A program made the position numbers and the translations under genes. A model generated the notes under the pieces. It made no database searches. It saw only the letters and a program-made list of their open reading frames with translations, and had not been told where the DNA came from. Source: Porphyridium purpureum (Eukaryota > Rhodophyta > Bangiophyceae > Porphyridiales > Porphyridiaceae). From it: DNA of 64,000 nucleotides. The DNA is taken from assembly GCA_008690995.1 (NCBI GenBank), contig VRMN01000001.1, forward strand, positions 3,410,001 through 3,474,000, read 5' to 3'. Below, one piece after another: positions 2,792 to 62,460 of this stretch; the first letter of the stretch is position 1, and each line of letters starts with the position of its first letter.

Positions 2792-3300
2792 GCCAGCCGA
2801 CCGCCACGTTCCCTCACACTCCGCCCTCCGCGATTCCCTCCGTACACCTCCCACCTCCCACCCACACACCTCTCTACGTATCCGCCCTTCTTGTTCCTTC
2901 CCTCCTCACCACCAACCCCCTCACCGCGCCCACTCGCGTTCTTCCCGCTTCTTCACACAAACAATTACTGCTAGTGTACTCCTGTTCGCCCTTACCAAAA
3001 CAGACGTGTTCTACTACACAGTCCCAATCGCTGCCTGCCGCACTCGCTAAAAATAAAAAGAGGCACAGGGGGTTGCACGCCTCCTAGTAAAGCGGGCGGC
3101 TTTGCTACAGGACACCTCCCACTCTGAAACGGACGTCTCAACACGCGGGAGTACAGTGATTGGGGTGAGGGTGTACAGTGCGGTGGTGGATGTACAGTGT
3201 GTGTACAGCTGGGGACGTGGTGGTGCGTCGGCGGGAGAGGCGGGGGGATGGTGTTGGGTGTGTAGGGGGGAGGGCGAGGAGTGGGGACGAGGTGTTCGCG
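2792..3300. promoter_or_regulatory. Divergent promoter region between NDPK/AK and WDR75-like genes
   Basis: 509 bp between two divergent starts. The side facing the WD40 gene holds three GTACAGT copies followed by a G-rich leader. The side facing the kinase gene is pyrimidine-rich on the plus strand, so the kinase leader is purine-rich. No exact reverse-oriented ACTGTAC was seen for the kinase gene. Confidence 0.5.
3151..3198 (+). promoter_or_regulatory. Three GTACAGT motifs upstream of WDR75-like gene
   Basis: Exact copies start at 3151, 3173 and 3192, with a one-mismatch GTACAGC at 3203. They lie 100-150 bp before the ATG at 3301, in the sense orientation. This is the densest cluster of the motif in the window. 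Confidence 0.55.
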
Positions 3301-6300
3301 ATGGTGAAGCAGAGTCCGGCAGAGGCCCGGATGGAGTGGCTGGGCGGCGGTGTGTTCCGGGATGTGGCGCCCGTGTGGCTGATGGGCGGGAGAGTGCTGG
3401 TGGTGTCGTGCGGCAGGCACTTGAAAGTGTACAGGCTGGTGCGCGATCTCGACGACGCGCAGCACAGCGCCGCCACAGAGGGCTACAAGTTGCTGTACGT
3501 GGGTCGCGTGCTGGCACATGACCGCTCCATCTCGGCAATGGCCGCCATGGGTCGCGCGCGCGTGGTGACGGCGTCCGTCGACGGCACGCTGCGCATTTGG
3601 GACGCCTCCGACCCGGTTCAGCTTGAATGCGAGCGCATTTTTGATCTGGGTAACGCTGTCGTCTCGCTCACGGCGGCGCCCTCGTCCACGCTCGGACCCA
3701 CCCCAGCCCCTCTGAACACCAATGCAACGTATGCCGTGACTGCCGCTAGCCAGCTTTTTCGAATATCGTTCTCGCCCGAGCGGCCTGACGTGCCTGTGCT
3801 TGAGAAAGTGCTCGGCAACCTGAATGCACATCGATTGGAATTCGCGGACGACAAGGAAAAGGGCGTGTTAGGTCGGGCACCAGCGCTCGCCGACGTACCG
3901 AGAATTCAAGTGCCTCAGCAGAGTCAGCCCGAGCACCATGCTGCACAAGGCCATTTACACTCCGTCGCCAAACCAGTCAAATGCCGCTCCGTTGCAGCTA
4001 TGCAAGTCGCGCTTCCATCAAGCTCGGTATGCACAAGGTGCGAGGTAGTGTGGATTGCGCGTCACAAGGTTTTGTACGGCGTCTTTCTGTACTGGACACA
4101 TGGGGACATCAGCGAGGGAGCATCAGCCGGTGCGGACGGTCGGGTCCGGCGAGCCATCCCCCTGCCCAGGAAGCCAGTGATTCGCACAGAAGTTTACACA
4201 TTAATACACGGGGAGCATATTCACGCGCTCGCACTGCGCCAGTCCGACGGCAGTGTTGCAATTAGTGATGCCACCGGTGCAATCTACATGTTCCCGAACT
4301 TGACCGAGCGGGCTCGGCTACACCTAGAACAAAAGCGAAGTGGTTCGGACAGAGCACACGTGACTTTAGCGGAGCAGAAGCACGCAGTACCTCATGCACG
4401 CATGCACTGGCACGCTTCAGCTGTGTGCACGCTGGGATTCGACGATGATGAGCGCGCCAACTCAGACGCGGCGCTAACGGCAGACGCGGACATGCTGATG
4501 GTTTCCGGAGCGTCGCTGCTATTTTCTGGTGGAGACGAAGGTGTGCTTGTAGAGTGGGACGTGGCGGAGAATGGACTAGGGCTCAGCGAAACACACGCAC
4601 CACGAAAGCGTTTTTTGCCGAGGCTTGGTGGCCGTTTGCTCGCCCTCAAGCCAAGTCCCGATCGTACGCTGCTCTGCACAGTGTCCGCTGACAACGTCAT
4701 TCGGCTTATCCAGCTCGCCGAGCAAAAGGTATGCGCGCAGGTCTTTGGCTTTCGTGGCGCGATGCCCTCCGAGGATATCGTCGATGGTACAGGGGCTTCG
4801 TATACCCGAGACCGTGCCAGGCATGCAACGTGTTCGAAGTGCCAGTCAAGTGCATGTGTTGACCTTGTCGGCGACCCATCTTGGCGGGGCGTGGTTTTCG
4901 TGCGATCGAGCGGAGGTGCTGGCTCTGTACAAGTTTATGACACGGTCCGAGACGCCCAAGTATCCCAAATGAACGTGGCGATGACGAACCAAACCCATTC
5001 CGTTGTCGCCGGGTCCGGCGGCGGAATATCGCAGACATTTAGTGCCTTTGTGGCTCATTTCCAGGTGGGCGCGGATCACGCCGCAAGCATAGATCGCCGC
5101 TGTTCCCGTTCTCTGCGCAGAACGGATGCAGTACATTGGTTAGTTCGCGGTGGCGAGTCGAGCCATGCGGCAAATGCTGAAACAGAACCTCATTGGTTTC
5201 ACAGCGATTGCCTCAAGTTTTGGACGCGCAAGCGCGTCGGCAGCGCCTCGTATGGCAGTGAGGATGCGCTTTCGCTCATTTGTCGAGTAGATCACCCTCA
5301 CGGAGACGCTGCTGTCAATAGCCTTGCTTTGAACAGACAGGGCGATTTAGCCGTCACAACCAGCGCGGAAGATCGCTCATTCCGTGTGTGGGCCTATATG
5401 CATGAGAACCAGCAGTCCGGCCAACCACAGGTGCAGTGGCAATGCGTGTACGTTGGACAGTACCAGAATCTGGCTTGCCAGCATGCTGCGTTTTCTGCGG
5501 ATTCGTCCTTGCTGTGCGTAGCATTTGAGAACGTGCTTGGGTTCTGGTCGATAACTGTCTTGGATGAAGCAACAAGCATCGACCAGGATCCGAGTGCGGG
5601 TGGAAAGCGACTGTCGTTTCAATGCGAATTTGTACGAGCTCTCGCTCACGCGGGGCCTCGTGCATGGATTCGCAGCGTGGGCTTTGCGGGAGGCAACGCC
5701 GGAGCGTCAACCAAGGTCGTGTGTGTGACCGGAGATGACCTGCAAGTTTGGAACGTGATTGGATGGAACTTGTTTTGGGGCTGCTCGCTTCGCCTTGCAC
5801 ATTCATCAGTGAATGATGGTCAGCTTATGGTGTGCGACCCGAGCTCCTCGCGATTTGCCGTTGTCATTTCTCTGATTGACGAAAAGGCGCGCATAAATCT
5901 GAAGGCCAAGGGCAATGGAGCCCAATTCTTGCGTCACGCGGTTGCCGTGTATAGTGCCGCAAGTGCGGTGCCTGTTGCTGTGCATGCACTGCCTCCGGGA
6001 ACTGCGGTGAGGAGCATGCTTTTCTCCAGATGCACCGGAGGATCTAGTACACTACCCAGCGTTTTGGTACTTACAAGTGACCTGGAGCTGTATCGGCTTG
6101 TCTCGCCGGGAGAGTGTGCCTTGGGTATGCTACATCGGGAGAATGGAAAGATGGAGGCCCCAGAGCAAGGCACGGTCTCCAGGGCAGCAAGCGCGTTATC
6201 ACACTTTGCATTTGTAGCACCTGGGGCGGAGAAGAGCATGGGTCATTTCGAGGGAGCCTCCATGCCGAATTGGTCGCCAGCGCAGTCATCTGCCCCTGCC

Positions 6301-6651
6301 AAACTCATCTCGCTTTTAGATGGACCAACGCACGTGCTTCCGAACCCTCAAGAGCTGATGCCTGAATTCCTCGCAGCTCTGTTTGGCGTATTTGAAGGTC
6401 CACATGCTGGGGCAGATGCTGAGGCTCAGGCCAGGTTCCGGTACGATGGCAGTGCAAGTGGAGGTTTGAAGAACGGAACACCTGAGGCCGCATCGTCCTC
6501 GGAGAATGTCGGCGCGCAAGAAAAGAAGGAGCAAAGGGGTTCACTGCAGCGTGCAGAAGCAGAGCTGGATGAAGATGCTTACTCTGACGTGGACGTGGAA
6601 AGAATCGCGTCGGACTTCGCGGCATATACAGCCCGAATTTCGGGAAAGTAG
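3301..6651 (+). CDS. WD40 protein, UTP17/NAN1/WDR75-like (SSU processome)
   Basis: 1116 aa with degenerate WD40 repeats in two blocks, about residues 30-480 and 680-960. Recognisable blade ends include GTLRIWDA and EDRSFRVWAY. The second block (NSLALNRQGDLAVTTS, then a Cys-Val-Tyr-Val-Gly-Gln-Tyr strand and FSADSSLLCVAFE) matches the order and spacing in WDR75/Nan1, a t-UTP/UtpA subunit that binds nascent pre-rRNA in the nucleolus. The C-terminus is acidic and probably disordered. The frame is open upstream to 3178, but only ATGs at 3190 and 3301 exist. 3301 is preferred because the earlier stretch is low-complexity and overlaps the promoter motifs. The family call rests on pattern recall; another large WD40 nucleolar protein is possible. 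Confidence 0.78.
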   Translation: MVKQSPAEARMEWLGGGVFRDVAPVWLMGGRVLVVSCGRHLKVYRLVRDLDDAQHSAATEGYKLLYVGRVLAHDRSISAMAAMGRARVVTASVDGTLRIWDASDPVQLECERIFDLGNAVVSLTAAPSSTLGPTPAPLNTNATYAVTAASQLFRISFSPERPDVPVLEKVLGNLNAHRLEFADDKEKGVLGRAPALADVPRIQVPQQSQPEHHAAQGHLHSVAKPVKCRSVAAMQVALPSSSVCTRCEVVWIARHKVLYGVFLYWTHGDISEGASAGADGRVRRAIPLPRKPVIRTEVYTLIHGEHIHALALRQSDGSVAISDATGAIYMFPNLTERARLHLEQKRSGSDRAHVTLAEQKHAVPHARMHWHASAVCTLGFDDDERANSDAALTADADMLMVSGASLLFSGGDEGVLVEWDVAENGLGLSETHAPRKRFLPRLGGRLLALKPSPDRTLLCTVSADNVIRLIQLAEQKVCAQVFGFRGAMPSEDIVDGTGASYTRDRARHATCSKCQSSACVDLVGDPSWRGVVFVRSSGGAGSVQVYDTVRDAQVSQMNVAMTNQTHSVVAGSGGGISQTFSAFVAHFQVGADHAASIDRRCSRSLRRTDAVHWLVRGGESSHAANAETEPHWFHSDCLKFWTRKRVGSASYGSEDALSLICRVDHPHGDAAVNSLALNRQGDLAVTTSAEDRSFRVWAYMHENQQSGQPQVQWQCVYVGQYQNLACQHAAFSADSSLLCVAFENVLGFWSITVLDEATSIDQDPSAGGKRLSFQCEFVRALAHAGPRAWIRSVGFAGGNAGASTKVVCVTGDDLQVWNVIGWNLFWGCSLRLAHSSVNDGQLMVCDPSSSRFAVVISLIDEKARINLKAKGNGAQFLRHAVAVYSAASAVPVAVHALPPGTAVRSMLFSRCTGGSSTLPSVLVLTSDLELYRLVSPGECALGMLHRENGKMEAPEQGTVSRAASALSHFAFVAPGAEKSMGHFEGASMPNWSPAQSSAPAKLISLLDGPTHVLPNPQELMPEFLAALFGVFEGPHAGADAEAQARFRYDGSASGGLKNGTPEAASSSENVGAQEKKEQRGSLQRAEAELDEDAYSDVDVERIASDFAAYTARISGK

Positions 6652-62164: not shown

Positions 62165-62171
62165 ACTGTAC
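62165..62171 (-). promoter_or_regulatory. GTACAGT motif for zinc-finger gene 2 (minus)
   Basis: ACTGTAC on the plus strand, about 260 bp upstream of ATG 61904 and pointing toward it. Confidence 0.5.
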
Positions 62172-62453
62172 CATAGTCTCGACGGGGAGCTGTACCGCGC
62201 GTTGCGGTGGCGGGACGCGCCGCGAGGTCACCAGTGCAGCAGCGCTCGCGGCGTGCTGGCGTTCTCCAAACACGACACCCGCCGGAATTCGTGCGCTTCA
62301 GCGATGCGCCGCGCGCGCGTGTGTGGCGCTCGTCCTGCCGCGTGGTTCCGTCGAGCCCCGTGCCGCTGCAGCGCGCGTTGTTTCTGTCGGTATGCGACGG
62401 CAGCCGGGTTCGCGGCGCGGGGCGTGCGAAGCTGCAACACGCGCGCACTTGCG

Positions 62454-62460
62454 GTACAGT
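62454..62460 (+). promoter_or_regulatory. GTACAGT motif upstream of phosphoglucomutase
   Basis: Sense-oriented copy about 230 bp before ATG 62687, followed by a purine-rich leader with a GA run. Confidence 0.55.

Follow-up and report, generated by a model that had tools for sequence, protein, structure and literature searches.

GTACAGT copies in the window

The heptamer GTACAGT was studied as a candidate promoter word in a 64,000-nucleotide (nt) stretch of the Porphyridium purpureum genome (contig VRMN01000001.1, positions 3,410,001 to 3,474,000), referred to here as the window; positions are window coordinates unless a contig is named. GTACAGT is a genuine, abundant and promoter-associated DNA word of this red alga, and the analysis of its copies, of a larger sample of the same genome and of the genome-wide counts is described below. 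The window contains 28 exact copies, 15 on the + strand and 13 on the − strand (where the + strand reads ACTGTAC). They are listed with the neighboring open reading frames (ORFs), where sense means pointing towards the start codon of the gene named and distances are in base pairs (bp).

3151..3157, +: sense, upstream of the WDR75-like ORF 3190-6651, whose next in-frame ATG is 111 nt downstream
3173..3179, +: sense, upstream of the WDR75-like ORF 3190-6651
3192..3198, +: overlaps ATG 3190, the first in the WDR75-like ORF, and may be 5' of the true start
8754..8760, −: in a divergent gap, 541 bp from ORF 7127-8215(−)
8776..8782, −: in the divergent gap, 563 bp from ORF 7127-8215(−)
15725..15731, −: sense, 109 bp upstream of the 6PF2K/phosphatase (PFKFB) ORF 14074-15618(−)
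15750..15756, +: sense, 150 bp upstream of the GT92-like ORF 15903-18113(+); antisense, 134 bp from the PFKFB start
18117..18123, −: exception, directly past the stop of the GT92-like ORF 15903-18113(+), in a convergent gap
18600..18606, −: exception, in the convergent gap shared with the copy at 18117
21231..21237, −: exception, within ORF 20606-24085(−)
24428..24434, +: sense, 154 bp upstream of the RBBP4/MSI-like WD40 ORF 24585-26093(+)
24450..24456, +: sense, 132 bp upstream of the RBBP4/MSI-like WD40 ORF 24585-26093(+)
28939..28945, −: in the first codons of the PPR-like ORF 26277-28961(−), whose next in-frame ATG is 102 nt downstream
28978..28984, −: sense, 19 bp upstream of the PPR-like ORF 26277-28961(−)
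29012..29018, +: sense, 107 bp upstream of the NGP1NT/GTPase (NOG2-like) ORF 29122-30807(+); antisense, 53 bp from the PPR-like start
31020..31026, +: sense, 217 bp upstream of the AAA-ATPase ORF 31240-33342(+), called CTF18 in the earlier note on this DNA
31041..31047, −: antisense, 196 bp upstream of the AAA-ATPase ORF 31240-33342(+)
38348..38354, −: isolated, antisense, 759 bp from ORF 39110-41863(+)
41014..41020, +: exception, within ORF 39110-41863(+)
41977..41983, −: past ORF 39110-41863; antisense, 559 bp upstream of the MFS ORF 42539-44224(+)
51604..51610, +: antisense, 388 bp upstream of the ketoacyl-synthase (FAE1/CUT1; KCS) ORF 49527-51218(−)
51620..51626, +: antisense, 404 bp upstream of the ketoacyl-synthase (FAE1/CUT1; KCS) ORF 49527-51218(−)
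53614..53620, −: exception, within the RNase III-like ORF 53055-55304(+)
57201..57207, +: sense, 128 bp upstream of the C2H2 zinc-finger ORF 57332-59488(+); antisense, 137 bp upstream of ORF 55408-57066(−)
62140..62146, +: in a three-copy cluster; antisense, 238 bp upstream of the C2H2 zinc-finger ORF 59868-61904(−)
62152..62158, +: in the cluster, antisense to ORF 59868-61904(−); paired convergently with the copy at 62165 (spacer 6)
62165..62171, −: in the cluster; sense, 263 bp upstream of the C2H2 zinc-finger ORF 59868-61904(−)
62454..62460, +: sense, 230 bp upstream of the ORF starting at 62687(+), called PGM in the earlier note

Dinucleotide-preserving shuffles of the window (n = 100) gave 3.24 copies on average, with a standard deviation of 1.75 and a maximum of 8. 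The earlier note, made by eye, had counted about 26 copies (15 and 11 on the two strands) against some 8 expected. The excess was borne out with slightly corrected numbers and, since the figure of 8 was a flat 7-mer expectation, it is larger than had been claimed. By raw count, with strands pooled, GTACAGT is only about 56th among the 7-mers of the window, after GC-rich and simple-repeat words, so that its number alone is unexceptional, and it is the location of the copies that is exceptional. Across the 22.16-Mb genome in 46 contigs there are 6,320 copies, compared with 3,088 of the reversed word, and the density in the window (0.44/kb) is above the genome mean (0.285/kb). An actin 5'-UTR primer published for P. 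purpureum (PMC10866757) has exactly one perfect match in this genome, and its partner primer, taken as the reverse complement, has none.

Although the ORF models occupy 74% of the window, only five of the 28 copies lie inside coding sequence by those models. The scarcity in coding sequence that had been noticed by eye therefore held, while the number given then (two) was too low. Three of the five are internal (21231, 41014 and 53614) and two (3192 and 28939) fall in first codons; since both of these ORFs have a further in-frame ATG downstream, the two copies may be upstream of the true start. The KCS gene, thought earlier to have no exact copy, has the antisense pair at 51604 and 51620. At 62140-62171, three copies, including the convergent pair with its 6-bp spacer, stand within 32 bp.

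Enrichment upstream of genes and sequence specificity

The sample was extended with 300 kb of the same genome (the flanks of the window, C43:1.00–1.16 Mb and C1:300–400 kb) to a total of 364 kb. Gene calling relied on a codon-usage score and a minimum ORF length of 100 codons, with the first ATG as the start; the resulting models are our own and not curated annotation, introns are ignored, and the first ATG may be too far upstream. Of the 140 genes modelled, 24 overlap the window and the 116 outside it were used as held-out genes.

In the held-out genes, with short tandem repeats masked, GTACAGT ranked first of 8,176 7-mers in upstream over coding sequence (51 vs. 3.6). A copy within 350 bp upstream of the start was found for 47 of the 140 genes, compared with 11 for the 350 bp downstream, where the stretches of tandem genes overlap in part with the promoter of the next gene, and with 2.1 on average for coding fragments matched in size and 3.5 genes in mononucleotide shuffles. 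For the held-out genes alone the numbers were 35 of 116 upstream and 8 of 116 downstream. Among the types of intergenic region, divergent gaps held most copies per kb (1.25), followed by the two types of tandem gap (0.67 and 0.80), and convergent gaps had the fewest (0.22). Thus, frequencies in upstream regions were not equal to those in coding or 3' regions but clearly ahead of them in the 364-kb sample. Relative to the ATG, density peaked at 3.15/kb between 100 and 150 bp and 3.62/kb between 150 and 200 bp, falling to 0.4–2/kb beyond 250 bp, in a peak that is about 100 bp broad and not sharp. Two or three copies per promoter were present in 22 of the 47 carriers. The proposal of the earlier note that the word is a promoter element is upheld by its rank in genes outside the window, its paucity in convergent 3' gaps and its preferred distance to the start.

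The word is highly specific. GTACAGT itself stood at 91 vs. 7.8, and most one-base variants were near background; those enriched were GTACAGC (29 vs. 9.3), GTACACT (17 vs. 4.6), GTTCAGT (14 vs. 4.4), GTACTGT (13 vs. 3.2) and TTACAGT (6 vs. 1.7). Flank preference was mild, with R-A-R before and G after the word, which can be written as RARGTACAG(T, less often C)G.

Another word that had looked like an upstream motif, AAGCGGTTGAAG, was rejected, being one 9-bp tandem array in the C1 block. This non-coding array, with GGTTGAAGC as its unit, lies at about C1:339450-339560 (L024:9451-9560) and can be mistaken for a promoter motif when k-mers are counted. Simple repeats of GA/CT and CA/GT are likewise concentrated upstream of the sampled genes.

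Orientation and pair geometry

In the window, 16 copies were no more than 400 bp from the nearest start, 10 of them sense and 6 antisense. In the 364-kb sample the ratio was 40 to 23 within 400 bp (p = 0.043; 30 to 17 without the window, p = 0.079), 33 to 21 within 250 bp (p = 0.13; 24 to 16 without the window, p = 0.27) and 20 to 8 within 150 bp (p = 0.036; 14 to 6 without the window, p = 0.115). Depending on the distance limit, 60–71% of copies are thus sense and 29–40% antisense, and the word does not keep to the fixed strand of a core element. The strand orientation proposed earlier is weakly supported, in that a sense majority exists next to a considerable antisense share. The case for a core element is likewise weak, as the antisense copies, the frequent clusters and the broad peak do not fit it.

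Genome-wide, pairs with spacers of 3–33 comprised 862 direct, 228 convergent and 321 divergent cases, compared with 9, 4 and 1 for the reversed word. Direct pairs make up 61% (862 of 1411) against 50% expected (chi-square p ~2e-18), in a count that includes repeats, such as the ACTGTAC-N7-GTACAGT family, and treats overlapping pairs of one cluster as independent. Together, the sense excess and the direct-pair excess indicate some directionality, though a partial one. Convergent pairs tend to be short: 26 of the first 50 listed have spacers of 3–6, and 113 pairs have spacers of 0–6 in the genome vs. none for the control. These short face-to-face pairs hint at cooperative or dimeric binding of a putative factor. 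Around 36 aligned sense copies, no convincing partner k-mer at a fixed offset was found.

The ACTGTAC-N7-GTACAGT pairs occur in series 6,177-6,193 bp apart, at C1:1068554/1074743, C2:35702/41895, C3:156951/163130, C11:141067/147257/153448, C11:590393/596572, C11:688439/694616 and C13:259302/265492. They look as if they lay in the long terminal repeats (LTRs) of a retrotransposon family bearing the host promoter motif.

Relation to GC skew as a transcription-start proxy

In the sampled upstream regions, the excess of G over C on the coding strand climbs from about −160 bp towards the ATG. Such a rise would be expected of a transcribed region, and it can perhaps be used as a rough proxy of the transcript start in this genome. 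The skew change-point of each gene correlated with the position of the proximal copy, with rho values of 0.60 for both orientations (n = 50), 0.64 for sense copies (n = 35) and 0.67 for antisense copies (n = 27). For sense copies, the correlation was maintained where a gene had flanks of the full 450 bp (rho 0.66, n = 24) and in held-out genes (rho 0.61, n = 25, p = 0.0013). Thirteen control 7-mers were also compared with the change-point. The eight abundant words without the motif core, each present in 14–21 genes, gave rho from −0.48 (p = 0.04) to 0.28, none significantly positive, while the five holding part of the motif gave 0.40 to 0.68. The distance from the change-point to the nearest copy in both orientations was below that of plain permutation (p = 0.0006) and, for sense copies, also in a test respecting gap length (p = 0.002). 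GTACAGT is read as lying near the transcription start rather than at a fixed offset from it.

Genes that carry the motif

Domain content was compared by a Pfam scan (E ≤ 1e-8) of 30 held-out carriers and 30 held-out non-carriers. The pool comprised the 97 held-out genes of at least 150 amino acids that each lie within a single 10-kb piece. Every carrier in it (30) was scanned, together with 30 non-carriers out of 67, the latter in order up to L017, omitting one at a stretch edge and the longest ones, and with none from the C1 block. A Pfam domain was present in 25 of the carriers and 23 of the non-carriers. Carriers included a mitochondrial carrier, a cyclin, an L7Ae-family protein, NatC, sybindin, an emp24 protein, a CASP golgin, chorismate synthase, a photosystem II assembly factor, a thiolase, a Na/H exchanger and vesicle-traffic proteins. 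Among the non-carriers were N-myristoyltransferase, RRP40, ribosomal L13, RNase HII, an MFS transporter, GT90 enzymes and a retrotransposon gag-like ORF. The word occurs at many functionally unrelated promoters (47 of 140 genes, with mixed functions among the 30 scanned carriers).

Some gene arrangements observed alongside are recorded here. Two adjacent ORFs at L004:1968-3385 (+) encode the N- and C-terminal parts of one protein kinase domain and are probably separated by an intron or a frameshift; in the scan these halves were split, one scored as a carrier and the other as a non-carrier (L004:1968 and L004:2633). A tandem pair of GT90 glycosyltransferase-like ORFs lies at L016:1191-4501 (+). 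In the window, a single ORF at 998-2791 (−) joins NDK, Dpy-30 and adenylate-kinase domains in an unusual fusion; P. purpureum is not known to have flagella. Among the proteins related to the MYB protein of the window, the fourth is from Porphyridium aerugineum (taxid 2792).

Interpretation and alternatives

What was observed for GTACAGT is specificity, upstream enrichment, a positional peak, homotypic clustering and a modest orientation preference, without shared flanks. From this pattern we infer that the word may be bound by a protein, mediate activation and lie close to the transcription start. On balance, GTACAGT is probably a promoter-proximal, double-stranded DNA cis-element of many functionally mixed P. 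purpureum genes and the site of a putative sequence-specific DNA-binding protein. Both enrichment over coding and 3' sequence and a preferred distance to the start, as found here, are what a general promoter cis-element would present. Most likely, such a protein would bind close to the transcription start, some 100-200 bp ahead of the start codon, and act as a widely used promoter factor that may recruit or position the transcription machinery or keep the promoter open.

Several results weigh against this reading. No exact copy within 350 bp upstream was found for 93 of the 140 genes, and carriers are unequally distributed between divergent (34 of 82) and tandem (12 of 49) promoters, a difference that is partly double counting, since divergent gaps serve two promoters and one copy in a narrow gap scores for both genes. 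Regarding the skew proxy, the nearest-copy test respecting gap length was weakened for both orientations (p = 0.043) and null for antisense copies (p = 0.58), and the skew jumped at the motif by 0.259 (sense) and 0.246 (antisense) on average, no more than for distances permuted among genes, as 184 and 277 of 1000 permutations, respectively, reached these values. Since the same ATG is the reference point for both motif and skew boundary, errors in the start codon may inflate their correlation, and the unrelated control words had fewer genes and hence less power. Depletion of upstream ATGs did not reveal a clear edge of the transcript in the sampled genes. Finally, the divergent spacer-7 excess is at least partly repeat-derived, as 15 of 50 listed places belong to the series spaced 6,177–6,193 bp apart.

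It is possible, though we consider it doubtful, that promoters in this red-algal lineage are defined chiefly by GTACAGT. A red-algal-specific factor would then take the place of TATA and CCAAT, set position and direction for a large share of genes, act as a dimer on short face-to-face pairs and be used also in retroelement LTRs.

An unlikely alternative is a directional, initiator-like core element, with transcription starting within the motif or a few fixed bases from it and CA as the start dinucleotide. The sense excess, the predominance of direct pairs and the correlation of the skew boundary with sense copies are in its favor, as is the poor showing of other elements: in the 140 genes and against mononucleotide shuffles, neither TATAAA (7 genes vs. 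4.8) nor CCAAT (38 vs. 50.9) was notably enriched upstream, and the initiator-like TCA[GT]T[CT] barely so (28 vs. 22.2). Since TATA and CCAAT are not enriched, another element may mark the starts. However, an initiator would hardly be antisense in 29–40% of copies, spread over a peak of about 100 bp relative to the ATG or be present two or three times in nearly half of the carrier promoters (22/47), and the short convergent pairs are hard to reconcile with it, as is the lack of a standout k-mer at a fixed offset in the aligned copies.

With slightly lower probability still, GTACAGT could be bound by a regulator dedicated to a single regulon, for instance of growth, light or the cell cycle. Only 47 of 140 genes carry it, and several carriers in the window belong by their domains to ribosome biogenesis or chromatin (WDR75, NOG2, MSI4-like). 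Nevertheless, the 30 held-out carriers are mixed and akin to the 30 non-carriers (25/30 vs. 23/30 with a Pfam domain), and the genes that have a copy within 400 bp (53 of 140) are not separated significantly from the rest by a codon-bias axis serving as a proxy of expression (p = 0.096), by GC content at third codon positions (p = 0.095) or by length (p = 0.74). The earlier idea that the word marks a gene class was not supported by this overlap in domain content and codon bias.

A role in RNA, as an element of the 5' untranslated region (UTR), is improbable. The preferred position at 100-200 bp before the ATG is within possible reach of a 5' UTR, and there is a mild sense bias, but 29–40% of copies point the other way, upstream regions often hold either orientation, and convergent 3' gaps are poor in the word. 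The least credible origin is the footprint of a dispersed repeat or transposon: the ACTGTAC-N7-GTACAGT family at 6.18-6.19 kb spacing exists, but the upstream enrichment is gene-associated and no pair among the 118 copies in the 364 kb shares at least 60% of 60 flanking bases, which contradicts a repeat origin for the sampled copies and marks GTACAGT there as a short independent word.

Comparison with known systems

The fungal general regulatory factors Reb1, Abf1 and Rap1 have sites in many promoters. GTACAGT resembles these sites in being short, highly specific, loosely oriented, at a preferred distance and present in many unrelated promoters, while its sequence differs and its factor is only putative here. 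SBP-domain proteins, such as plant SPL and the Chlamydomonas CRR1 of the copper-response element, bind sites with a GTAC core, which GTACAGT also contains. Unlike those sites, six of the nine one-base variants that keep GTAC were at background (GTACAGC, GTACACT and GTACTGT being the exceptions) and GTTCAGT, with a broken core, was enriched, so the GTAC core does not suffice. The scanned carriers do not resemble a copper regulon either. The SBP domain (PF03110) gave 0 matches in this genome and likewise 0 in all 14 controls.

With the Initiator (Inr), for example the TCAGT of Drosophila, GTACAGT shares CAGT, a mild sense bias and a position near the putative start, but it differs in its multiple and antisense copies and broad position. 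Sites of the apicomplexan AP2-G type are GTAC-centered, lie in upstream regions and serve a developmental regulon; GTACAGT is also GTAC-containing and upstream, although broadly used.

Among the matches listed in open-licence full texts, no promoter motif of this sequence was described, nor any promoter motif for Porphyridium nuclear genes, and no genome-wide Porphyridium promoter map was described in the open-licence papers among those matches. GTACAGT as a word together with "promoter" and "motif" returned no open-licence paper. PMC6282006 was discarded as a prior description, as its motif words belong to a primer table. The earlier note, which knew of no described red-algal element with this sequence, is in line with these matches.

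Judging from its sequence pattern, GTACAGT is most likely the site of a broadly used putative transcription factor. P. purpureum is transformable, and reporter constructs exist (PMC6110788, PMC10866757). For this alga, GTACAGT is a concrete, mutable promoter word, present in about a third of the sampled genes, and it provides a starting point for identifying the putative transcription factor as well as a rule by which promoters could be designed.

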